Origin: Propionibacteriaceae bacterium
GTDB taxonomy: Bacteria > Actinomycetota > Actinomycetes > Propionibacteriales > Propionibacteriaceae
Assembly (NCBI GenBank): GCA_031272805.1
Contig: JAISTC010000101.1
Coordinates: forward strand, 1-32,539
Direction of reading: 5' to 3'
Length of the DNA stretch: 32,539 bases
Shown here: positions 2,220-29,541 of the stretch, piece by piece
Layout of the letters: each line of letters starts with the position of its first letter
Position numbering within the stretch: position 1 is the stretch's first letter
Position numbers and translations under genes: made by a program
The notes under the pieces: model-generated
What the model was told of the DNA's origin: nothing
The model's database searches: none
Seen by the model: only the letters and a program-made list of their open reading frames with translations

Positions 2220-5200
2220 CTACTCCTCCTTGCGGGAACGGGCTAGTAGGGCTGTGCCGGCGGCCAGCAGTAGCAATGCCAATGCGCTGACGGCTATGGC
2301 TGTGCCTTGGGTCAAGGGCATACCCAAGGGGCCGATTGGCGGGGCGCTCGGCTGCGCCGTCGCGGTCCCGGCCGGGGTCGGCTCCGGGGTGGCGCTGGCC
2401 TGCGGCGTCGCGCTGTCGGTCGGGGACGGGCTCTCCGCTGGAGTCGGGCTCGGAGTCGGGGACTCGGCCGGGGTCGGGCTCGGGCTCTCGCTAGGTGTTG
2501 GGCTCGGCGTGGGCGTCGGGCTCTCGGCCGGGGTTGGGCTTGGGCTCGGCGTCGGGCTTGGACTCGGCGTCGGGCTTGGACTCGGGGACTCTGCCGGAGT
2601 CGGGCTTGGGCTCGGCGTTGGGCTCGGGCTTGGGCTCGGCGTCGGGCTTGGGCTCGGGGACTCAGCGGGAGTCGGGCTCGGGCTGGCCGTCGGGGTCGGG
2701 GACTCCGTTGGCGTCGGGCTCGTTGTCGGCGTCGGGCTCACCGTGGGCGTCGGCGTTACCGTCGGCGTCGGCGTTACCGTCGGCGTCGGCGTCACGGTCG
2801 GCGTCGGGCTGGCCGTCGGGGTCGGAGACACCGTCGGCGTCGGAGACACCGTCGGCGTCGGGGTTACCGTCGGCGTCGGGGTTACCGTGGGCGTCGGGGT
2901 CACTGTTGGCGTCGGGGTGGGGCTTGGTGTGACTACCGGGGCCTCTACCTCGACTGTGGCTGCGTCCCTGTTGTTGGACGAGTCGGAGTCCTGCTGCGTG
3001 TGGCCGACGACGCCGACCAACGTCAGGGTGGCCGGCGCGGACGGCGCCTTACCCGTAATCCGATACGTCACGCTGGCGCCGGCCGGGAACGCGCCGATCG
3101 GGCACGTCACCAGGCGGCCGACCACGCCGCAGGTCGTGGCGGGGCTGACGTCGCCGACGTGGCCTGAGACGGCCACAACCGGGTTCTGGAGCCCCTCGGG
3201 GAGCTGGAACGTGGCGAAGGCACCCGTCGTGGCGAACGGCCCGTCATTCGACGCCACGGCCGTGTAGCCGACCGCCGCGCCCACCTCGACCGGACTGGCG
3301 TCCGCCGTGACCGCGATCGCCACGTCCACCGCCGGGGCCCCGACGTCGACCGAGGCCGAGGCATCGTCGTTGGGCGGGTAGGCGTCCGTGTGGTCGTGGG
3401 CCGAGTGGGCAGTCAGAACCAGGGTGGTCAGGCCGGCCGCCGGGGCCGTCCCCGTCACGCGGATCGTGACCGACGCCCCGACCGGGAAGTCGCCGACCGG
3501 GCACAGGGCGGTCGTTCCGGAGATAGCGCAAGGCCCAGGGGCTGCCCCACCGTCAGCCGCCGAGATCGTCGCCGCCGCGCCCCCCAAGGCAGGCGGGAGA
3601 TCGATCGAAACGACCTCGCCGGTGGTCGCCACCGGGCCTACGTTGACCAACCCTACTGTGTACCCCACCGCAGCGCCAGCCGCGACCGGAGTTTGGTCGG
3701 CCACGACCGTCACGGCGACGTCGGTCGGCGGCGTCAACTGGCCGCGCACCGTCACCGTGGCCGACGCCGTGTCGTTGGCCGGATCGGGGTCCGGCAAGGT
3801 GTGACTCGTCACCGCCGACAAGGTCAGTTGGGCGGAGCCGCCGTCGGGCGCGCGACCCTTGACGTGGTACGTGACGGACGCGCCGAGCGGCAGGTCGCCG
3901 ATCGCGCAGGTCGCGGCCGAACCCTCAACCGGGCAATCAGACGGCGCCGCGCCGCCCGTGGCGCCCGTGACCGTGACCGTGACGCCCGTCAAGGCCGGGG
4001 GCAGGTCCAGCGTCACGGTCGCCCCCACCGTCGGGTCCGGCCCGTGGTTCGTCACGACCACCGCGTAGCCGACGGGCGCGCCCGCGTCCACGACCGGCGC
4101 GTCCGGCGTCACGACGACGCCCACGTCCGCGGTCGGCGGCGCGGCCTCGTTGACCGTGGCGACGGCGAGGTCGTTGGCGGGGTTCGTGTCGGCCTTGGCG
4201 TGGGTGACGACGGCCGTCAGCGATAGCCGGGCCGACGCGCCGTCGGGCGCCGCGCCGGTAATCCGGTAGGTCGCCGTCGCGCCGACCGGCATGTCCCCGA
4301 TCGGGCACGTCACGGTCAGCTCGTCGGCCGAGCAGGTGACGTCCGGCGCCGCCCCGCCCGTCGCGCCGGACCACGTCACGGTCGCGCCGGCCAGGTTGGC
4401 CGGGAGCAGGAACGTCACGACCGCGCCGGTCGTCGGCTCCGGCCCGTTGTTTTCGACCACGGCCGTGTAGCCGACGGCACCGTCCGGGCCGACCTCAGGC
4501 GCGTCGGCCGCCACGGTCACGCCGACGTCGGTCGGCGGCGGGGCGACGGTCCGGTCGCAGGTCTGGGAGACGTTGTCGGCCAGGTCCGGGTCGTTCGGGG
4601 CCGTGTCGACGGTCGCCGTATTGCACAGGTCGCCCGCGACGTCCGGGCCGACCGCGAAGACGACGTCGACCACGACCGACGCGCCGGGCGCCAGGTCAGG
4701 CACCTCGCAGCGGACCGGGTTGCCCGCCACGGCCGGCGCCGGGCAGGCCGTGCCGTCGGCCAGGGTCGCCGAGACGAACGTCAGGCCCGCCGGGATGGCG
4801 TCGGTCAGGACGACGCCGGTCGCCAGGGACGGGCCGGCGTTGGTCGCCGTCAGCTTGTAGGTCACGTTCGCCCCCGCCTGGACCGGCGTCGGGCCGACCA
4901 GGGTCTTGACGACCGTGACGTCGGCGGCCTGGCCGACCGCGACGGAGACGTCCGCCGCGTTGTTGATCAGGGTCGTCTCGGTCGTCGGGGTGGCGGTCGC
5001 AAAGTGGGCCGTGGCCACGCCGTTCGGCGCGTCGGGCGGGATGGCGGCCTGGAACGTCCCGGTCAGACTGGCGCCGGGGGCGAGGGTGACGCCCGCCGCC
5101 GTGACACAGTGGACGTGCTGGGCGGCGCCTTCGGCGGGCGCGTCGGCCGAGCAGGTCAGGCCGGGGATCTGGGCGGCCGCGAAGACGAAGCCGACCGGCA

Positions 5201-8200
5201 GGTCGACGTCGAGGACCGGCTCGCGGGCGCTCGACGTCCCCTGGTTCTTGATGGTGACGCCGTAGGTCACGGTCGACCCGGCGGCCGGAGTGACATCGCC
5301 CGCCGTCGCCGTCGTGGCCGTGATCGCCAGGTCAGTGTCCTGGATGGCGTCGACGACCGCGTGGGCCTGCTTGTCGACGGGCGAGCCGTCGCGGGCCGGC
5401 GTGGCCGCCGTCACGACCGCGACGTTGTCCAGCCCCGTGCCGTCGGCGATCTCGCCGACGACGTCGGGCGCGACCGTACCGTAGACCTGGAGGGTGACCG
5501 GCTGCGGCGTCATCGACTTGAGCTCGTACTGGTAGCCGTGGAGCGTCCCGACCTGGCACGTCACGACCGTTCCGGCCGCGCTGATCGAGCACGTGCCCTG
5601 GCCCGCGTTGACGGTCGTGGCGACGAGCCCGGCGGGCAGGGTGTCCGTGACGACGACGCCGGTCGCGTCCGCGCCCAGCTCCGTGACGTCGAGCGGCGCG
5701 GTCGAGGCCGCGTCGAGCGGGACGGCCCAGACCTGGATCTCGTAGCCGAACGTCCCGCCCGCCAGGAACGCGGCGTGGCCGTCGGCGTTGGGGAGGGTGT
5801 CGAGGGCGATCTTCGTGATGTCGACGTCGGCGCGCGGCGCGTCGACCGTCATGCCGACGTCTTTCTCGTTGTTCGTGTAGTCCGACTCGGGCGTCGTCGT
5901 CGTGACCTTGAGGTACGCGCCGGGCGGCGTCCCGTTGGCCGGGTAGTCGCCGGCCTGGACGTAGGCCAGGAGGTAGCTCGGCAGGCCCTCCAGGACGACC
6001 TGGGCGCCGGGCGGCAGCGAGCCGTCGGACGTCCCGGTTGCGACGCCGTTGACGATGAGCGGCGCGCCCACGATCGTGCAGACGATCTCGTTGCCAAGGT
6101 TCTGGCAGTTGGGCGTCCCGTCGCCCCGGTCGGCGATCATCCAGGCAGGCACATGGTCCTTGTCCATGATGTTGTCGACCGCCGTCTTGTAGCGGAAGAC
6201 GACATTGTCGGCCGTCGAGGGGCCGTTGTTGCCGATCGTGATGTCGTTGGTCCACTTCGAGCCCGCGCCCGTGTAGGCGTCGACGGGCGTCATGGCGAAC
6301 GCCACGGCCGCCACATCGGCGACGTCCTGGCTCGTGTCCGTGACCGTGGCCCGGTTGTTGGACGTGGTCGGGTCGTGGGTGGCCGCGGCCACGACCGCCA
6401 CGTTGGTCAGGAGCGTCCCCTCGGGGACGGTCAGGGCGACCGCGACGGTCACGTCGATGGTCCAGGTGGCGCCGTTGGCCAGCGTCGCGCCGGGCTGGCA
6501 GGTCAGCGACTGGGCGTCGCCGGCGATGGCGCAGGTCCCCTGGTCCGCCGTGGCGGCGGTTGCCGTCACGCCGTCCGGCAGCGTGTCCGTCAGCGTGACG
6601 TCGGCCGCGGGGTCGGGCCCGTGGTTGGTGACGACGAGGTGGTAGCTGGCGGTCGAGCCCGCTACGAAGGGGCCGGTCGAGGTCTTGACCACGGCCAGGT
6701 CGGCCGACAGGTCGCCCGTGTTGGTCCAGTGGCCCTCGTTGTTGTCGGGGGTCGGGTCGGGCGTGTCGGAGCCGACCTTGGCGACCTGGTCGAACGAGTC
6801 CGGCGGGTCGGGCCAGGGGTCGGGCGCGGCCAGGACGACGGTCCAGACGGCGCTGGCGCCGGGGGCCAGAGAGGCCAGGGAGCAGGTCAGGTTGCCGCTG
6901 TCTTCTTGGCAAGTCCCCGGCCCATTGGCGGAAACATAGGTCAATTCGGACGGCAACGTATCGGCCAAGCCGACGTTCTTGGCTGTGGAAGGACCGTTGT
7001 TCTTGACCGTGACCGTATACGTCACCTGGTCGCCCGGGTTCGGCACCTTGGTCGTGTCCGCCACCTTCGTCACGGCCAGGTCGGCCGAGGTCGTCAGCGT
7101 GGTCGTGGCCGACGCCGTGTTATTCGAGGTGTCGGGATCGCCGGGCGCGCTGGCCACGGCGTTGTTGACCAGGGTCGTGGCCGAGCCCGGGTCGGCGTTG
7201 ACGGTCCCGCGGATGTTGACCGTGACGGACGCCCCGACGGCCAGGTTGCCGAAGCCGTCGCAGGTCACGGTCCGGCCGTTGGCCGACACCGCGCAGGTCC
7301 CGCGGTCGGCCGTGGCGGACGACGCGGTCACGAGGTCGGGCAGCGTGTCGGCGATGACCACGTCGGCCGCGTCGGACGGCCCCTGGTTGACCGCCGTGAC
7401 CGTCCAGGCGATCGCCCCGCCGGCCACGGCCGTGGCCGGGCCGGTCTTGGTCAGCGCGATGTCCGCCACGCGGTCGCCGACAGTGACATCGGCCTCGGAC
7501 TGGTTGTTGTCCGGGTTGGGGTCGAGGGTCGTCGTCGTGACGGCGGACTGGTTGACGACGGTAGCGCCGGGCGCGACCGACTCGTTGACCAGGGCCGTGA
7601 CAGTGACGCCGAGCGAGCCCCCGGCGGCCAGCGTGTCGACCGTGCAGCGGGCGGACGAGCCGGAGCTGACCACGGCGCAGTCCAGGCCCGGACCCGCCGC
7701 CGATAGCAACGTCAGTTGCGACGGGTCGGCGACCGTGTCCGTGATGACGACGCCGGCGGCGTCGGAGCCCGCGCCCGGGGTCAGGACGAGGTTGGAGACG
7801 GCCAGAGTGTAGGTCACGGTCTGGCCGGGAGTGACGGTCGCCGGATCGGCCGTCTTGGTAATGGAGAGGTCCGCCGCCCGGCCCAGCGGGACCGTGGCGG
7901 TAGCAGTGTTGTTGGACTTGTCCGTGTCGTAGGAGGTCGTCGTGACCGTGGCCGTGTTGGTCAGGGAGGTCGCCGTGGAGCCCGCCACCGTATGGCCCGT
8001 GACCGTGACGACGACGGACGACCCGGCCGCCACCGTACCGAGGTCGCAGTTGAGCGTCCCGCCCGCGCCCGGCGTGACACAGGCGGCGCCGGACGAGACC
8101 TGGACCGACTCAGCGACGTAGCCGTCGGGCAGCGGATCGTTGACGACGACCCCGGCCGCGTCCGCCGGGCCGGCGTTGGCGACGGTCAACGTGACCGTCT

Positions 8201-11200
8201 CAGCCGCGCCCGCGACGGCCGGGTTGGGCGTCATGGCTTTCTGGATCGACACGTCGACCCGGTCGGACAGGACGTCGTGGCAGGCCTCGGACTCGTTGTC
8301 GGACGAGTCGGGGTCGAGCGCGTCGGAGCCGACCAGGGCCTTGTTGCAGAGGTTGCTGCCGGAGAACCCGGCGTCGACGTCGAACGTCACCGTCACCGAG
8401 ACCGACTGGCCGGGCTCGAGGTCGCCGACCGGGCAGTTGAGGACCGCCTGGCCGTTGACGTCGACGGGCGCGGGGCAGTCGGCGCCGCCGTCGACCGTCG
8501 CCCCCACGAACGTCATGCCCTCGGGCACCGTGTCGGAGACGACGACGTCGCGGGCGACCGACGGGCCGACCGGGTTCGACGCGGTCAGCCGGTACGTCGC
8601 GGCGCTGCCCGCCTGGAGCGGGTTGGGCTCGACCAGGGTCTTCTCGACCTTCGTGTTGGCGACGACCTGGACGGACACCGTGACGGGCGCGCGGTTGTTG
8701 GAGTAGTCGGACTCGCAGGTCCCCGCGCCGACGGCCGGGCACTCGACGGGGTTCTGGGAGTACGTGTAGCTGGTGGCCGTGTACTGGCCGGACGGCGTGT
8801 CGGCGGGAATGTGGACGGTCACGGTCCCCGGGATCGTGAAGCCCGGCAGGAACGAGTCGCGGTAGTCCGTCTCGGGCCGGCCGACGCAGTGGATCGTGGC
8901 GACGGCCGGGTCCGTCCCGGGCTTCGTCCCCGTCGTGCACTCCATCGTCGGGATGTTGTAGGAGACGATCGTGAAACCGGGCGGGAACTCGGCGTCGGTC
9001 GTCGGCCGGTCGGCGGTCGACGGGCCGAGGTTGACGCCGGTCAGCGTGTACGTCAGGTCGCCGCCGGCGGCCGGGGTCGTCGTCGTGACCGTCGCGGTCA
9101 CGGCGATGTCGGCCAGGCGGTCGAGTTCGGTATCGACCGTGGCCGTGTTGTTGGCTGGGACCGTGTCGGGGGCCGAGGAGCCGACGACAGCTTGGTTGTG
9201 CAAGGTCCGCGGGATGGGTTCGGAGGTCGACTGGCCGCCGACGCTCGCGCCCAGGTCCGTCGGCGGCAGCTCCTCCGGGCACTGGACGCCGACGACGCCC
9301 GATTGGCCGGGGCACCAGTAGGGCCGGAGGTCCCGCGGGTCGGTCGTGGCGACGAGGCGGACGTTGACCGACTTGCCCGCCTGGATGGTCCCGGCGGGCT
9401 GGCCCGCGGCCTGGGGCACGCACGTCACGACCTGCTGGCCGGTCCCGAGCGCGGCCGTCGCGGGGCCGTCGACCGAGCAGCCGGGTGAGTTGGCCGGGTC
9501 GAGGGTCAGGCCCAGCGGCAACGTATCCGTCACGACGGCGTCGGCCACGTCGGACGGGCCGTTGTTCAGCGCGGTCAGCGTATAGCCGACGGTCGCGCCG
9601 GCGTAGGCCACCGGCGCGTCGGCCAGCTTGGCCAACTGGAGGTCGGCCTGGGCCACGACATCGACCGTGGCGGTCGCCTGGACCGTCGAGCCGTCGCCGT
9701 CCGTCTCGTCATTGCTGAGGCCGTCCGTGTCCGTGTGCGCGGAGGCCGTGTTGACGGCCCCGCCGCCGCCCGTGATCTCCGCCTCGGCCGAGGCCGCGAT
9801 GGAGCCGTAGACGAACACCGTGACCTTCTGGGGGGCGGCCGGGTCGGTACTGGCCCGGACCGTACCGAGCTGGCAGGTGATGCTGGCGCCCGTCGTGACG
9901 GAGCAGGAACCCTGGGACGGGTTGACCTGCGTCGCCGTGAACCCGGCGGGCAGCGTATCCGTCAGGACGACGTTGGCGGCGTCGGCCGGGCTGACCGTGA
10001 CGTGGGCCGTACTGTCGGTCGTGGCCGGCACCCACAGGTCGATCTGGTAGCCGAACTTGTCGCCGGCGATGTACGTCGAGTGGCCGTCGCCGTTGGGGTT
10101 GGCCACGGTCGACAGCGCCGTCTTGGCGATCTTGAGGTCGGTCTTGGCCGCGGGGATGACCAGGGCGGCCGTGTCGTAGTTGTCCGTGTAGTCGGTTTCC
10201 GTGACGCCGGACGAGACCGACGCCCAACCGCCCGGCTGGCCCTGGCAGACCTGGCTGCGGCCGCAATCGGGGAAGTCCTGCGGGGCGGCCGTGTCGGGCG
10301 TGATCGTGAACGGGAAGTAGAACGAGACCGACTGGCCGGGCTGGAGGACCTGGGCGGCCGGATCCGGGTTGTCGGCCAGGTCGCAGACGAGCTGCTGGTT
10401 GACCGAGTGGCACCAAGCCGGGAACGACGCCTGGTCCGGGGTCGCCGTGACGGCGACGTTGGAGAGGATCTGGACGTGCGTGGCCGTCGACGGGCCGTCG
10501 TTGCGGACCGTGATGACGGCGTAGCGGAGGGAGCCGGGGCCCGTGTACGTCGACGGGACGGCCGTGTCGGCCAGGTACGGGTCCGTGGGCGTGCCGGCGC
10601 CCGTGACGGCGTAGCCGATGCCGTAGTCGATGGCCAGGTTGTTGGCGGCCGTGACGTTGTCCGTGACGCTGGCTTCGTTGTTCGCCCAGGTCGGGTCGTC
10701 GGTCCCGGCGCCGGAGCCGTCGGGGTTGTTGGCAGAGCTGACCATCGCCGTGTTCGTCAACTGGGTCCCGTCCGGCAGGCCCGCGTCGGCCGTGAACGGC
10801 AGAGTGATGGCCCAGACGTCGCCCGGCTCCATGTTCGCGCCCTTGAGGCAGGTCACGTCCTGGCCGCTGGCCGTGCACTCGGCGGGCCACGCCGGGTCGC
10901 CGGTCGCCGGCGTCAGGCCGTCCGGGAAGTTGTCGGCCACGACCGGGTAGAGCGCCTCGTCGGGGCCGTAGTTGTTGACGGTCAACGTGTAGGCGCCGCT
11001 GGCGCCCGCCGTGACGCCGTTCGACAGCTTGGCAATCGCCAGGTCGGCCTGGGCGTTGCCCGAGTTGGTCCAGGTCGTCGTGTTGTTGCCGGGGTTGGGG
11101 TCGGGCGTCGGGCTGTCGACGCGGACGCTCTGGGTCGCCGACGTCGGCTCGGGGTCGGGGACGGTCATGACGACATGGATGGTCGCCGTCGCCCCGGCCG

Positions 11201-14200
11201 CCAGGTCGCCGACCGGGCACGTCAACGTCGAGCCGCTGTCCTGGCAGCCGCCGTCCGCCGACGTGAAGGTCAGTTCCGGCGGCAGGGTGTCGGTCACGGT
11301 CGCCTGCTTGGCGGCGGACGGGCCCTTGTTCGTGACCGTGATCGTGTACTCGATCGTGTCGCCCTTGTTGGGCACCTTGCTGGTCGAGCCGGACTTGGCG
11401 ATCACGAGGTCGGCCGAACCCGTCACGTCGGTCGTCACGGTCGGCGTATCAGGGTGGGGGTCGTCGCCGGGCGGCGGGTCGTTGGTCTGGGTCGTCTGGG
11501 CCGTGTTGGCCAGCGTGCCCGTAAACGCCGGGTCGATCAGGACGCCCTGCAGCGTGACGCGGGCCGTCGCGCCCGTCCCGCCGGGCGCGTTCGGGCCGGG
11601 CAGAGTTCCAATGGCGCACGTCACCGTGTTGGTCGCCGTCACCACCTGGCACGTCCCCCGGTCGCTCGACACGGTCGTGGCCGCGTCGGCGCTGAGCCCG
11701 GCCGGCAAACTGTCGGCCAGCGTGACGCCGGTCGCGTCGGAGGGGCCGAAGTTCGTCACGGTCATCGTGTAGCTGACGCGGTTGCCCGCGATGGCCGTGG
11801 CTGGGCCGGTCTTGACCGTCTGGAGGTCCGACTGGGGCGCGCCGGTCGTGACGTAGGCGACAGCCTGGTTGTCGGCCTGGTTGGGGTCGAACGTGGCGGA
11901 CGTGACGGCGGCGTTGTTGGCGATGCCGTCCGTCCCGGCCGGGACGTTGCCCGGCACGTACGCCGTGACCACAACCTTGGCCGTCTGGCCGGGCTTGAGC
12001 GCCGCGTCGGCCGTGCACTGGGCGGACGTGGCGGAGACCTGGCCCGCGGGGCACGTGACCGCGACGTCGCCGCCGCCGTCCGTGGCCGACTGGAGGATGA
12101 GCTGGGCCGGGTTGGCGACCTTGTCCGTGATGACGACGGCGGTCGCGTCGGAGAGGTTCGTGCCGGTGGCGGGGCTGGGATCCTGGTTCGTCACGGTCAG
12201 CGTCCACGTCACGAGGCTGCCCGGCGTCACGGTCTGCGGCGTCGGCGTCTTCTCGACCTTGAGGTCGGCCTGGTGGGTCAGCGGGATCGAGACCGTGTCG
12301 ACGTTGTTCGTCATGTCCGGGTCGAACGAGGTCGTCGCCACCGAGGCGATGTTCGAGAGCGTCGTGTCGGGGTCGTCCGAATCGGGCACGCCGTTGATCG
12401 TGACCGTGACCGTGGCGCCGTCGGCCAGATCCTGGAGGGCGCAGGTGACGGGCTGGCCGGCGGCCGGGAGCTCACAGGCCGAGCCGTCGGAGGCCTGGAT
12501 GGCCGTGGCCGTGTAGTGGGCCGGGATCGGGTCGCTGACGACGACGCCGGTCGCCGTGTTGGGGCCGTGGTTCGTCACCGTCAGGACCGTCTGGCCGGGC
12601 TGGCCGGCGATGGCCGGGTTGGGCGTCATCGTCTTGTCGATGGCCACGTCCGCCTTGAGGCCGACGGGAGTCGAGACCGGGGGCGGCGTGTACGTGCCGG
12701 AGGTCCGGGTCGTCCCCGTCAGGTACGTCAGGTTGGCCTGGTTCGTCACGGTCGTGCCGCCGGCGTCGTCGTCGATCGTGACCTGGAACTGGTAGTACGT
12801 CGCATCGCCGACGTTGATCGTGCCGCCCTGGGACGGGGTCGCGCCGCGGCCCAGGTTGACGCAGATGGTCCGGCCGTCGAACGACGCCAGGCCGGAGCCG
12901 TCGTCCGGCAAGGTCACGGGGGTCGTGACGTTCGGATCGGGGGTGGCGACCAAGGTCAGGGAGCCCGGGACGTATGTGACGCCGGCCGGGAGAGTGTCGC
13001 AGGACTGGGAGTTGACGGCCGGGTCCTGGCCCGTGTTGGCGTACATCAGCGTGTACTGGAGCTTGTCGCCGGGGTTGGCCGTGCCGGTGCCGGTCAGGTT
13101 GACGACGGACTTCGTCGAACTCGAAAAGTCGGGGGCGTAGAGGTTGATGGCCAGGCCGAGGACGCCCGGGTAGTAGACGTCGCCCTCGGAGGAGAAGGTG
13201 AAGCTGGCGGAGGTCGCCCCGTTGGGGATGACGCCGGACGCGCCGAAGTTCTTCAGGTCGTAGCCGAGCATGTTCTGGTCGGCCGGGTAGCGGCAGGAAT
13301 ACGGGGCGTCGGCCCAGTCGCCGGACGCGGGGCAGGCGGGGACAGAGTTGCCGTTGAAGGTATTGACGGAGTCGAAGAAGTTCGAGCCGGGCGAGGACGT
13401 CGTCGCCAACTGGGCGTTGTTGAGCTTGACGTAATCGCCGGTCAGCGTCAGGTCGCCCTCGTAGGCGACGACGCTCAACTGGGCGTCGACGGTCCCGGAC
13501 AGGGGGGCCAGGAAGCCCGACACCTGGACCGTCTGCGGGGCGCCCTTCTTGATCATGTTGAAGCCGTCGAAGACGGTCAGGTTGCGCAGCGGCAAGCCGG
13601 GGGCCGTGTAGACGACGGTCAGCGACCAGCCGGCGTACATGTCGATCTCGCCGGTCGCGGCCGTCACGTTCGCCCCCCAGTAGGCGCCGTTACCGGCCTG
13701 CTGGACCAGCGTCGTGACGTCGGCGAAGCCCTGGTAGGCGAGGGCGGAGGACGTGTTGGGGCCGAAGATGGCGTCGGCCTCGATGTCCAGGTAGGAGTCA
13801 CTGCCCGGGAGTTTCAGGCTCATCTCCCGCCAGGCGCCGGTCGTGTACTGCCCCGTCGTCAGGCGGGCGCCCCAGTACAGGCCGGCCCAGAGGACGCTGG
13901 AGCCGGCGGGGAGGTTGAGGGTTGAGGAGGAGGAGTCGAAGGTCGAGGAGTCCTGGTCGGCGTCGCGGTAGACAATGTTGAAGTTGTTGTTGTCGTACTG
14001 GGCGCCGGCGCGGGCGTTGAGGCAGTTCGTCGGGTTCGAGATGGCGTCGTTGCAGCTCGTCAGGTTGTTGCCCAGCGTCACGATCGCGCCGTTGGCGTTG
14101 ACGGCGAAGCGGGGCTGGAAGGGGACCGTGTTGGCCGCCTCGGATGGCTCGGGCGCGCTCACCGCCCACACCATCGCGCCAACCAGCGCCACCGCCGTGG

Positions 14201-14228
14201 CGACCGCGACCAACCGTTGACCACGCAT
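2220..14228 (-). CDS. Giant secreted DUF11 multi-repeat surface protein with Pro/Thr/Ser-rich stalk and C-terminal TM anchor
   Basis: One uninterrupted ~12-kb ORF. Start placed at [31 protein letters not shown] (signal peptide; SD-like AAGGGGTG upstream) rather than the ORF-track start at 14267. About 24 repeated modules of the type 'ADLxIxKT...VxYTxTVxNxGPSxAxxVxVxDxLP...C...C.G.L..G......NxAxVxxxxxDPxxxNN', then a TPTPTV stalk and C-terminus [27 protein letters not shown]. Confidence 0.95.
2360..2945 (-). repeat. Low-complexity Pro/Thr/Ser stalk-coding repeat of the giant protein
   Basis: Short tandem DNA repeats of the type ggcgtcgg(c/g)gttaccgtcggcgtc encoding ([18 protein letters not shown])n. 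Confidence 0.9.
2946..4545 (-). repeat. Four tandem ~400-bp 'K-type' DUF11-like modules
   Basis: Starts at about 4545, 4145, 3742 and 3345: [16 protein letters not shown].., [17 protein letters not shown].., [18 protein letters not shown].., [18 protein letters not shown]... All share VGYT, GGAAP, C.(V/I)GD.P.GASVTY.(I/V).G.AP and the absence of the strand-A Lys. Boundaries approximate. Confidence 0.85.
4546..8261 (-). repeat. DUF11 module block copy 2 (A'-B'-C'-D'-E'-F'-G'-I'-J')
   Basis: Module order and signature segments match copy 1 (8262-12660): [111 protein letters not shown]. Boundaries approximate. Confidence 0.85.
8262..12660 (-). repeat. DUF11 module block copy 1 (A-B-C-D-E-F-G-H-I-J)
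   Basis: Signature segments: [83 protein letters not shown], [module [13 protein letters not shown]], [31 protein letters not shown]. Boundaries approximate. Confidence 0.85.
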
Positions 14229-14378
14229 CAGGACACCCCTTATCGCTCCGTGTGACTCACCCCACACTTGTGACCCCAGACACTAGCAAGTCCCACCAAG
14301 CCCGGCCCAGCCTTTTGGGGCCGAAAAGGGGTTGTCTCACCAAAGGTTCGCCAGATCACCACAGAGCCAACACACGGC

Positions 14379-14562
14379 GTGACATTGGGGACGGTTCCTT
14401 TTGTCACACTCTGGCTACGGCCACGGTGTCAGGCCCCGTGTGACATTGTGTGACATTGGGGACGGTTCCTCTTGTCACACTCTGGCTACGGCCACGGTGT
14501 CAGGCCCCGTGGCTGTCGCTCGTTCCTCGCTCCGTAGCCACGGTGCCCGACCCCATGGCCTT
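14379..14562 (+). repeat. REP-A/REP-B nested cluster with ~62-bp duplication
   Basis: gtgacattggggacggttccttttgtcacactctggctacggccacggtgtcaggccccgtg at 14379 and again (one mismatch) from 14450; the second copy continues into a full REP-B. Confidence 0.88.
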
Positions 14563-14732
14563 CCGACCCTATGGCCTGTTCTTGTCTGAATTTTCACCAA
14601 AATGTGCGTGCTTCCTCACAATCGCGACGTATGCTCCTGCCTGTCCGCGCGGCCGGGACCTCCGGTCGATAGGGGAAGTCGCGGGCGACTGACAAGTTCA
14701 AACGAACATCAGACAACAACATGGGGTGTTTC

Positions 14733-18896: not shown

Positions 18897-18899
18897 CGT

Positions 18900-18968
18900 G
18901 TGTGACATTGGGGACGGTTCCTTTTGTCACACCGAGTGTGACAAAAGGAACCGTCCCCAATGTCACAC
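18900..18968. repeat. REP-A F/R pair: perfect 33-bp inverted repeat with 3-nt loop
   Basis: F arm 18900-18932 gtgtgacattggggacggttccttttgtcacac; loop cga; R arm 18936-18968 is its exact reverse complement. Confidence 0.97.
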
Positions 18969-18980
18969 CCAATGTCACAC

Positions 18981-23846: not shown

Positions 23847-23958
23847 GGCCATGGGGTCGGGCACGCTGGCTACGGGGTCGGGCACGCCGGCCATGGGGTC
23901 GGGCACGCTGGCTACGGAGCGAGGACCGAGCGACAGCCAGCGGGCCTGACACCGGGGC
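23847..23958 (-). repeat. REP-B repeat cluster (second family)
   Basis: ggccatggggtcgggcacgctggctacgg..., partially duplicated, then ctacggagcgaggaccgagcgacagccagcgggcctgacaccg; reverse complement of copies at 315-393, 2092-2170 and 14482-14562. Confidence 0.85.
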
Positions 23959-23967
23959 CGGCCCACC

Positions 23968-23995
23968 GTGACATTGGGGACGGTTCCTTCGTCAC
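23968..23995 (+). repeat. REP-A, F orientation
   Basis: gtgacattggggacggttccttcgtcac. Confidence 0.9.
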
Positions 23996-24042
23996 GCTGA
24001 ACGCCGGGCCGGTGGGTCACGCCGGCGCGCTACTGTGGGCAC

Positions 24043-24765
24043 GTGGGACTCGGGGCGGTGGCGTGGGCGGTCATGGCGGTGGCCGCCGTGGTCATGGGCT
24101 TCTCCAAGACGGCGATCGGCAACGTCGCGCTCCTCGGCGTCGTCGCCCTGGCCCAGGTCCTGCCGGCCAAGGACTCGACCGGCGTCGCGCTCCTGCTGCT
24201 CTTGGTCGGCGATGCCGTCGCCACCGTGACCTACCGGAAATCCGCCGACTGGCCTGTCATCGGCCGGCTCATCCTGCCCGTCGCCGTCGGCCTCGGCCTC
24301 GGCGCCGTCTTTCTCCACGTGACGTCGGACTCGGTCCTCAAGAAGACCATCGGCGCCATCATCCTCGCCCTGCTGCTCCTCGGGCTGCGGCCGGACAAGC
24401 TCGGCGTCCAGCGCCCGGCCGTGGCCGCGGGCTACGGCGGCCTGGCCGGCTTCACGACGATGGTGGCGAACGCCGGTGGCCCGGCCATGAGCCTCTACCT
24501 GCTGGCGGCCCGGTTCGACAAACTCCGCTTCCTCGGCACGTCGGCCTGGTTCTTCGCCGCGGTCAACGTGACGAAGCTGCCGATCTCCATCGGCCTCGGC
24601 CTCGTCCGGCCCGACACGGCCCTCATCGCCCTCCCGCTCGCCCCCGCCGTGCTCCTCGGCACGGCCATCGGCCGCCGCGTCGTCCAGCGCCTCGACCAGA
24701 AGACTTTCACCGCGCTGATCATGATCTTCGTGGCGATCTCGGCGCTGTACCTGATCGCCAGCTAG
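24043..24765 (+). CDS. TSUP family (TauE/SafE-like) membrane transporter
   Basis: MGLGAVAWAVMAVAAVVMGFSKTAIGNVALLGVVALAQVLPAKDSTG...ANAGGPAMSLYLLAARFDKLRFLGTSAWFFAAVNVTKLP. Confidence 0.88.
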   Translation: MGLGAVAWAVMAVAAVVMGFSKTAIGNVALLGVVALAQVLPAKDSTGVALLLLLVGDAVATVTYRKSADWPVIGRLILPVAVGLGLGAVFLHVTSDSVLKKTIGAIILALLLLGLRPDKLGVQRPAVAAGYGGLAGFTTMVANAGGPAMSLYLLAARFDKLRFLGTSAWFFAAVNVTKLPISIGLGLVRPDTALIALPLAPAVLLGTAIGRRVVQRLDQKTFTALIMIFVAISALYLIAS

Positions 24766-24843
24766 GCGTGACAAAGGAACCGTCCCCAATGTCACACACG
24801 GGCGTCACGCGGTGTGACATTGGGGACGGTTCCTTTGTCACGC
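24766..24843. repeat. REP-A R/F pair at the 3' end of the RAYT gene
   Basis: R 24766-24797 gcgtgacaaaggaaccgtccccaatgtcacac; F 24812-24843 gtgtgacattggggacggttcctttgtcacgc. F overlaps the RAYT stop codon (24838-24840). Confidence 0.95.
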
Positions 24844-25608
24844 TGGGGCCGAGTCGGCCGACTCGGGCGTGACGCTGCGCCAGACCACGCCGCGGTTCAG
24901 GCCGGTCAGCCGCGCCAACTGGCGCACGGACGCGCCACGCTGGAACGCCTCCGCCAGCGCCGCCTGCTGCAGCGGCCGGCCGAGAGCCTGGAAAGCCGTC
25001 GCCTGGCCGGCGCCGCTGACAGCCGCCAGGACGCTCCAGGCCTGCTCGTCAGAGGGCCGACGGCCCTGCACGGCCGACGGGGGGCGGGCGGCGGCCTCGT
25101 CGACCTCTCCCCGCAACTCGGCCCAGTCGGCCACGCCGGTCAACTCCTTGACGCGCCGCGCGTCCACGACGCGGTCGGGGCCCGCCGCGCTGCTCCACTC
25201 GTACTCGGCCGGGGTCGCGCACAGGCCGGCCTCGACCGGATTGCCGTGGACGTAGCGGATCACGTTGATGAGATCCTCGGTCTCCACCACCGGCCGGCTC
25301 TTGAACCGGTCTTGCCACAGGTGGCCGACCCGGTCGTACTTGTGGTTGAACCACCACACGTACCGCGCGCCCAACCGGCGGAAGAACTGGCCGACCGGCT
25401 CCCGCGTGACCTCAACCACCAGGTGGACGTGGTTCGACATCAGGCAGTACGCCAGCACGCGGACGCCGCTCAGGTCCGCCGCCGCCACGGCGCAGTCGAG
25501 GAACCGCCGCCGATCGGCGTCATCCTCGAAAATGTTCTGCCGGTTGATGCCGCGCAGGAACGCGTGATGCACGCCGACCTCGCCGTGAATCCGCTGGCTT
25601 CGTGACAT
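24838..25608 (-). mobile_element. REP-associated tyrosine transposase (RAYT, IS200/Y1_Tnp HUH family)
   Basis: 256 aa; FLRGINRQNIFEDDADRRRFLD, LAYCLMSNHVHLVVEV (HUH-type H-V-H), KYDRVGHLWQDRFKSRPVVETEDLINVIRYVHGNPVEAGL (Tyr-containing helix), C-terminal helix-turn-helix-like tail. Confidence 0.93.
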
Positions 25609-25654
25609 GGGAGGCCCCTCCGTTCGTTGAGGACCAACTCAATTCCACCAGCAA

Positions 25655-25744
25655 GTGTGACAGAAAGAACCGTCCCCCATGTCACGCCGTCACATGTCAC
25701 GCCGTCACGCCCGTGTGACATTGGGGACGGTTCCTGTGTCACAC
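25655..25744. repeat. REP-A R/F pair at the 5' end of the RAYT gene
   Basis: R 25655-25685 gtgtgacagaaagaaccgtcccccatgtcac; F 25713-25744 gtgtgacattggggacggttcctgtgtcacac. Confidence 0.93.
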
Positions 25745-25747
25745 CTA

Positions 25748-25815
25748 GCCATGGGGTCGGGCGCCGTGGCTACGGAGCGAGGAACGAGCGATTCCACGGG
25801 GCCTGACACCGTGGC
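25748..25815 (-). repeat. REP-B copy
   Basis: gccatggggtcgggcgccgtggctacggagcgaggaacgagcgattccacggggcctgacaccgtggcg; 3 bp from REP-A. Confidence 0.85.
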
Positions 25816-25839
25816 GCCCCGCCAGAACACCCCGCCAGA

Positions 25840-25871
25840 GTGTGACAAAGGAACCGTCCCCAATGTCACAC
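25840..25871 (-). repeat. REP-A, R orientation
   Basis: gtgtgacaaaggaaccgtccccaatgtcacac. Confidence 0.95.
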
Positions 25872-28774: not shown

Positions 28775-28907
28775 GATCCGGAGAACTTCGAGATCGTGTT
28801 GGGTGGTGGAAGGCTGGAATTGGATCGCCGCCAGGTAATGCGTTTTGCCCAGCGAATGGCGTCGCGCGCATCGCCTTGCGCCGGTTAGACTCCTTGCTGT
28901 GGGCACG

Positions 28908-29165
28908 ATGTATGCAACGGTGACCGGCAAAGGTCAGATCACCCTGCCGGCGCCGGTTCGCCGGGCGCTGGGGATTGAGGCAGGCCAGCGGATCGAGGTG
29001 CGTCTGGAGGAACGGCGGGCCGTCATTGAGGCGCCGGCCCCAGTCGCGCATCTGCGGCAGGCGCTCGAGCGCGAAGCCCGTGAGCGGGGAACCTGGGGCA
29101 AGGCATACTCATCCGGAGACGGGTGGGCGGCTCGGGTGCGCGAGGCCGGCGATGCCGAGTCTTGA
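28908..29165 (+). CDS. AbrB/MazE-VapB-family antitoxin
   Basis: MYATVTGKGQITLPAPVRRALGIEAGQRIEVRLEERRAVIEAP (SpoVT/AbrB fold); GTG at 28899 is an alternative start. Confidence 0.85.
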   Translation: MYATVTGKGQITLPAPVRRALGIEAGQRIEVRLEERRAVIEAPAPVAHLRQALEREARERGTWGKAYSSGDGWAARVREAGDAES

Positions 29166-29541
29166 CACGAACGGCGTGCTCCGCTGGCTCATGGGCGACG
29201 TGCCGGACCAGGCTGCCGCAGTAGACGCGGCACTGGCCACTGGAACCAAGTTCCATCTGGACGACATCGTCTTGGTCGAAGTGGTCTACGCGCTGGAACA
29301 CCACTACCTGCTGTCCCGGCCAACTACTGCCGCGTCGTTGCAGACGGTCATGGGCCAGGCCGGGTTCCTCCTCGACCGGCCACTGTGGAGCGAAGTCTTG
29401 CCGGTCTACATTGCGAAGCCGAAGCTGTCGCTGGTCGACATCCTGACCGTCGAACGCGCCCGCCGCACCGGTCGAACCCCCGTGGCGATATTCGACCGCA
29501 AGATGGCCAGCCAGCTCAAGGACGTGGAACTGCTGTCGTAG
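29152..29541 (+). CDS. PIN-domain toxin (VapC-like)
   Basis: MPSLDTNGVLRWLMGD...FHLDDIVLVEVVYALEHHY...LSLVDILTVERARRTGRTPVAIFDRKMASQL; overlaps the antitoxin by 14 nt. Confidence 0.87.
   Translation: MPSLDTNGVLRWLMGDVPDQAAAVDAALATGTKFHLDDIVLVEVVYALEHHYLLSRPTTAASLQTVMGQAGFLLDRPLWSEVLPVYIAKPKLSLVDILTVERARRTGRTPVAIFDRKMASQLKDVELLS

Follow-up and report, generated by a model that had tools for sequence, protein, structure and literature searches.

A RAYT-like HUH transposase gene bounded by copies of an amplified hairpin repeat in a Propionibacteriaceae genome

Sequence comparison indicates, with a probability of roughly 0.8, that the gene at 24838-25608 encodes a RAYT-like HUH transposase of the TIRYT/subclass 2.1 type, that the REP-A copies bounding it are its own putative recognition ends, and that it spreads REP-A in trans. 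The window, meaning the whole 32,539-nucleotide stretch of DNA that was analysed, is the entire contig C229 of a 2.96-Mb Propionibacteriaceae genome in 239 contigs. The same layout, which combines a shared core with lineage-specific stems and has the stop codon at or next to the repeat, is found at related genes across several phyla, so that REP-A is probably spread by the transposase.

The transposase and its locus

The protein matches Pfam Y1_Tnp (E 1.1e-11) and the NCBIfam model REP_Tyr_transpos (NF047646; 65.7 bits, E 4e-18, under the curated cut-off of 80). H60 and H62 form the HxH motif (NHVH) and the catalytic tyrosine is Y119, within YVHGNP; H60 and Y119 are kept in 85 of 85 relatives, H62 in 84 of 85, and N123 and P124 in 84 or 85 of 85. 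The nearest PDB fold to the AlphaFold2 model (mean pLDDT 89.4) is 4er8, E. coli TnpA-REP bound to a REP hairpin (E 2.6e-6, TM 0.73 by target length), and a profile search likewise returned E. coli TnpA-REP as the best match (E 1.7e-8). Residues ~187-246 are modelled as a helical, HTH-like C-terminal region, for which HTH sequence matches are weak. Phylogenetically, the gene lies within a supported Propionibacteriaceae-type set (100/97, 15 rows) apart from IS200 transposases, in a tree with few outside references where the placement of E. coli RayT, on a very long branch, is unreliable; the closest named kin in the comparison are Propionibacteriaceae MAGs. The original prediction of a RAYT is thus borne out by Y1_Tnp, REP_Tyr_transpos and the 4er8 fold as far as a RAYT-like HUH tyrosine transposase goes, but the best fit is to the TIRYT/subclass 2.1 type. 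Three transposases of another actinobacterial genome, G014 (L012, L014 and L015), group among Bacillota sequences in the same tree, which suggests horizontal transfer.

A sequence check placed the gene between REP-A F and REP-A R, as had been predicted (Table 1). The R copy is diverged, with two substitutions within the 19-nt core match. REP-A copies run in the order F R F gene R F R across 23968-25871, so that both gene flanks are R-F doublets; the doublet on the 3' side (24766-24843) has a predicted fold of -45.7 kcal/mol (z -13.5). The transposase stop codon, read as TCA on the plus strand at 24838-24840, falls inside the outer stem arm (GCGTGACA) of REP-A F. Gene and repeat are therefore physically fused, as proposed, but the stop sits in the stem arm and not, as had been supposed, in the conserved core, which is GGGGACGG.

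The adjacent non-transposase gene is likewise enclosed F..R, by the copies at 23968-23997 and 24766-24797, and F..R enclosure was rejected as significant by itself for that reason; random orientations enclose about one gene in four, so that the enclosure of one gene is not significant alone.

Table 1. Coordinates of the transposase gene and of repeat features in the window (F and R, REP-A orientations)
Feature	Position	Strand	Details
REP-A copy F, far side of the neighbouring gene	23968-23997	+	
Neighbouring non-transposase gene	24043-24765	+	
Outer REP-A copy R, R-F doublet with 24812-24843	24766-24797	-	
REP-A copy F, 3' side of the transposase gene	24812-24843	+	GTGTGACATTGGGGACGGTTCCTTTGTCACGC; hairpin -5.8 kcal/mol, z -2.5
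HUH/Y1 tyrosine transposase gene	24838-25608	-	256 aa, ATG start, TGA stop
REP-A copy R, 5' side of the transposase gene	25655-25685	-	GTGTGACAGAAAGAACCGTCCCCCATGTCACGC; hairpin z -1.6
Outer REP-A copy F, R-F doublet with 25655-25685	25713-25744	+	doublet z -5.9
Further REP-A copy R, continuing the alternation	25840-25871	-	
Short F-R composite, probable non-autonomous unit	18898-18970	.	fold -42.6 kcal/mol, z -13.0
REP-B copies, interleaved with REP-A	312-393, 2089-2170, 14485-14566, 23889-23964, 25748-25791		

REP-A and the other repeats in this genome and its relatives

REP-A is a small hairpin with a GTGACA/TGTCAC stem and a loop that carries the family-wide core GGGGACGG(TTC). Its 11-nt core, GGGGACGGTTC, has 182 exact copies genome-wide against 0 for the reversed-pattern control, and REP-A is therefore not a chance match. 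Of these copies, 22 lie in the window contig, which makes up 1.1% of the genome and would be expected to hold ~2 if they were evenly spread, in agreement with the earlier view that the flanking repeat is locally amplified.

Composites of two REP-A copies were counted in a sample of 329 kb, used alongside whole-genome pattern counts, its contigs being partly picked for known REP-A so that its densities are biased; 14 were F-R and 2 were R-F, with core spacings of 38-142 bp. The short composites had been noted to have the same F..R polarity as the gene flanks. This holds for REP-A and REP-C, but REP-B composites and gene flanks disagree, so that a polarity common to composites and gene flanks is not a general rule. 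No compensatory change was found in the REP-A stems among copies in the genome sample; the inner stem barely varies and the outer two pairs are without covariation. The usual F-R composites contrast with the stretch at 14374-14511, where both members of a tandem REP-A pair point the same way (F F), within a 71-nt direct repeat that includes part of REP-B.

The F-R composites form long, strong predicted hairpins, and REP-A copies sit between genes and at gene ends, both of which suit a secondary function in which the composites today serve chiefly as transcription terminators or as structures at mRNA 3' ends and the transposase is no more than their historical origin. This leaves the gene-flanking copies and the lineage-specific stems unexplained and is, on balance, unlikely; it is nevertheless compatible with the transposase as the origin of REP-A.

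Four Y1 genes are present in this genome, each flanked by a different inverted repeat, the other three encoding paralogues 40-44% identical to the REP-A-flanked gene. The gene on contig C30 is flanked by REP-B (242 genome copies; absent from the 97 relatives described below except for one 2-mismatch match) and that on C191 by REP-C (68 copies), whose counts of 0-5 in 39 relatives are background since control counts are equally high there. The gene on C29 (L013, G000:C29:4175-4771) is truncated, lacks the C-terminal domain and runs into an array of GGGGACAGTCCCC, designated REP-D, which has only ~12 exact copies genome-wide. A private repeat for each paralogue is a published property of RAYTs (PMC6006769, PMC2817692). 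Four transposases and four repeat families in one genome make specificity directly testable.

The comparison set consisted of 98 genomes, this genome (G000) and 97 relatives. A transposase homologue at E < 1e-10 was detected only in G000, G014 and G026 (182, 26 and 307 core copies), and 94 of the other 95 genomes had 0-11 copies; the three transposase-bearing genomes rank 1, 2 and 4 of 98 for core copies (P ~1e-5, relatedness ignored). Core abundance in relatives with and without the gene, the comparison on which the original prediction was to be judged, therefore tracks the transposase in 97 of 98 genomes. The remaining genome, G036, has 75 core copies and no detectable Y1 gene in an assembly given as 100% complete, and is thus a single instance of what had been named as contrary evidence, abundant repeats in a relative without the gene, but the stems there differ. 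Most of the G036 copies examined carry GGCCTGAAAT...TTTTCAGGCC or GGACCGT...CGGTCC, and a few look like chance matches. Two of the five genus mates of G036 carry such a transposase gene, with yet other stems. Gene loss in G036 is the simplest reading of its orphan repeats, which show that a repeat family can be kept, or can come into being, in a genome with no transposase of its own, and provide a test case for the fate of a repeat family once its transposase is lost. The orphans, at loci L040-L069, comprise two hairpin repeat families with the GGGGACGGTTC core.

Layout around related genes

The related loci were the best 80 of 507 public-genome matches to two conserved peptide patterns, and eleven were added from G000 and its relatives; one branch was thereby sampled, rather than the whole subclass. 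Flanking inverted repeats exceeded the 99% shuffle level at 67 of the 83 loci with enough flank, while no such flank was found at 16 of the 83, nor at the Skermanella, cyanobacterial and Collinsella loci looked up. A GGGAC(GG/AG/GT) core was arranged F..R around the gene at 61 of 86 non-redundant loci (one duplicate removed) and R..F at 6; across the transposase family, F..R polarity is significant. As a check, the E. coli rayT locus was run and its known GTAG-type REPs were recovered. Relatives carrying such a gene were also found in Mesobacillus and Bacillus.

Stems of at least 5 were formed by 62% of elements with their own arms and by 21% with arms swapped between loci, and stems of at least 6 by 45% and 7%, respectively. 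Since own arms pair more often than swapped ones, the loci have a loop core in common but private stems. At 42 of 73 loci the distance from the stop codon to the start of the core is 2-20 nt, compared with 11 of 2493 control windows, and the fused stop in the window is accordingly one case of a common spacing. GGGGACGGTTC is present in 33 of 36 transposase-bearing host genomes, many of them with tens to hundreds of copies (up to 349). Stem similarity tracks protein similarity weakly (catalytic domain, r 0.13; C-terminus, r 0.10). A tie of stem sequence to the C-terminal domain specifically was considered and rejected, as correlations were weak for both domains with no clear preference.

An autonomous unit, in which the whole F-gene-R segment moves like an IS200 element, had been proposed. 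Its inverted ends in conserved polarity, the fusion of the stop codon to one end, and a scattered distribution that includes the three G014 copies among Bacillota proteins would all fit such an element. Yet the unit is single-copy in the genome, its paralogues are only 40-44% identical and have other repeats, and published RAYTs also lack multiple copies (PMC2817692). No empty site was found either, in relatives that are not close: the right-hand gene was not beside homologues of the left neighbour, themselves only ~50% identical. The proposal is thus unsupported, and we regard it as highly unlikely.

Less probable still is a coincidence of neighbourhood, with REP-A spread by another agent (a paralogue, template switching or terminator selection) and the gene merely lying in a repeat-rich region, for which the F..R enclosure of the neighbouring gene, the G036 repeats and the suitability of strong F-R hairpins for a terminator or mRNA-end role can be cited, but against which stand the co-occurrence in 97 of 98 genomes, the private repeat of each paralogue, and the family-wide polarity and stop spacing.

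Known systems and a possible mechanism

The transposase as the agent that spreads REP-A is in keeping with the RAYT/TnpA-REP and REPtron systems of E. coli, Stenotrophomonas and Pseudomonas (PMC2817692, PMC8266576), in which, as here, a single-copy Y1 HUH gene lies between inverted palindromic repeats. Further likenesses are cognate repeats in the hundreds, several paralogues each with its own repeat, a repeat often directly past the stop, accumulation near the gene, and the nearest solved fold. The class 2 features of RAYT/TnpA-REP are likewise present: HUH with Y---NP, an abundant inverted flanking repeat and low copy number. That REPs bound a RAYT and abut its stop, accumulate locally and are private to it was already known (PMC2817692). 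The protein here, however, has 256 aa rather than 165, with an extra C-terminal HTH-like domain, and where classical RAYT groups 2 and 3 have a GT[AG]G foot tetranucleotide, REP-A lacks it and has its conserved bases (GGGGACGG) in the loop, as do most of the other repeats.

TIRYTs and TIRtrons (PMC3733652) resemble the present gene in length (~240 aa type), NHVH, Y..NP, the C-terminal HTH, and inverted repeats on the flanks that carry a GGGG[AT][CG]A[CG]-like motif and in some cases overlap the gene 3' end or are moderately repeated in the genome. GGGGACGG is one base off the published TIRYT motif GGGGWSAS, which relatives with GGGGACAG match; TIRYT repeats with the GGGGWSAS motif, including ones that overlap the gene, had already been described (PMC3733652). 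In contrast to TIRYT/subclass 2.1, the repeats here take the form of hairpins whose stems are private, and they have been amplified to 68-242 copies. In the 2018 classification of Quentin et al. (PMC6006769), TIRYTs probably correspond to subclass 2.1, which is group 1 in the RAYT scheme of Bertels et al.; the 2018 survey detected no REP-like sequences in the neighbourhood of subclass 2.1 genes and did not settle whether these are the TIRYTs (PMC6006769).

The HUH/Y1 catalytic core and hairpin recognition at the ends are points of likeness to IS200/IS605 TnpA, from which the gene differs in having Y..NP and not Y..Q, in being single-copy without near-identical multiples, and in its separate, well-supported tree branch. 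REPINs and BIMEs are also inverted REP pairs that form long hairpins dispersed in the genome, but with another core and stem; the composites here are F-R with the core spacing given above. In the literature searched, most subscription papers being outside the search, no stem-variable, loop-constant, high-copy hairpins were found around this gene type, and a search for the core sequence gave unrelated matches only.

TnpA-REP carries out strand-specific processing of its single-stranded cognate REP and contacts loop or bulge bases (PMC8266576). By analogy, we infer binding, cleavage and mobilisation by the present protein, and their specificity for REP-A. REP-A made single-stranded, for example at a replication fork, would be recognised as a hairpin through its loop core, with the stem as the specific part; cleavage beside the hairpin would proceed via Tyr119, and strand transfer would give rise to further REP-A copies, and to F-R composites, at other sites that are often near the gene. 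The gene itself would be a resident, domesticated copy, and a REPtron/TIRtron-like unit would have its 3' boundary at the fused stop and hairpin. Counted against this explanation are G036, the lack of compensatory stem change, the weak correlation of stem and protein, REP-B polarity and the flankless loci.

More tentatively, and at somewhat under even odds, the TIRYT/subclass 2.1 transposases may, in a large cross-phylum branch, be true REP systems of a different design, in which a constant loop core, GGGGACGG(TTC), is read by the HUH domain and the private stem perhaps by the C-terminal HTH, each paralogue having its own non-overlapping repeat population. If so, one genome could host several insulated repeat families. 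Biochemical work on RAYTs has dealt with groups 2 and 3, whereas group 1 (subclass 2.1), the largest, has been reported without REPs and is assigned no substrate in the literature searched; the layout described here names stem-variable, loop-constant hairpins as its probable substrate.

Two further features of the window were recorded. A 4015-aa ORF at 2220-14267 (-), which contains numerous repeated domains of extracellular type and has a PT-rich stretch at its C-terminal end, probably encodes a surface protein, and two small adjacent ORFs at 28845-29541 resemble, by eye, an AbrB-type antitoxin and a PIN-domain toxin.
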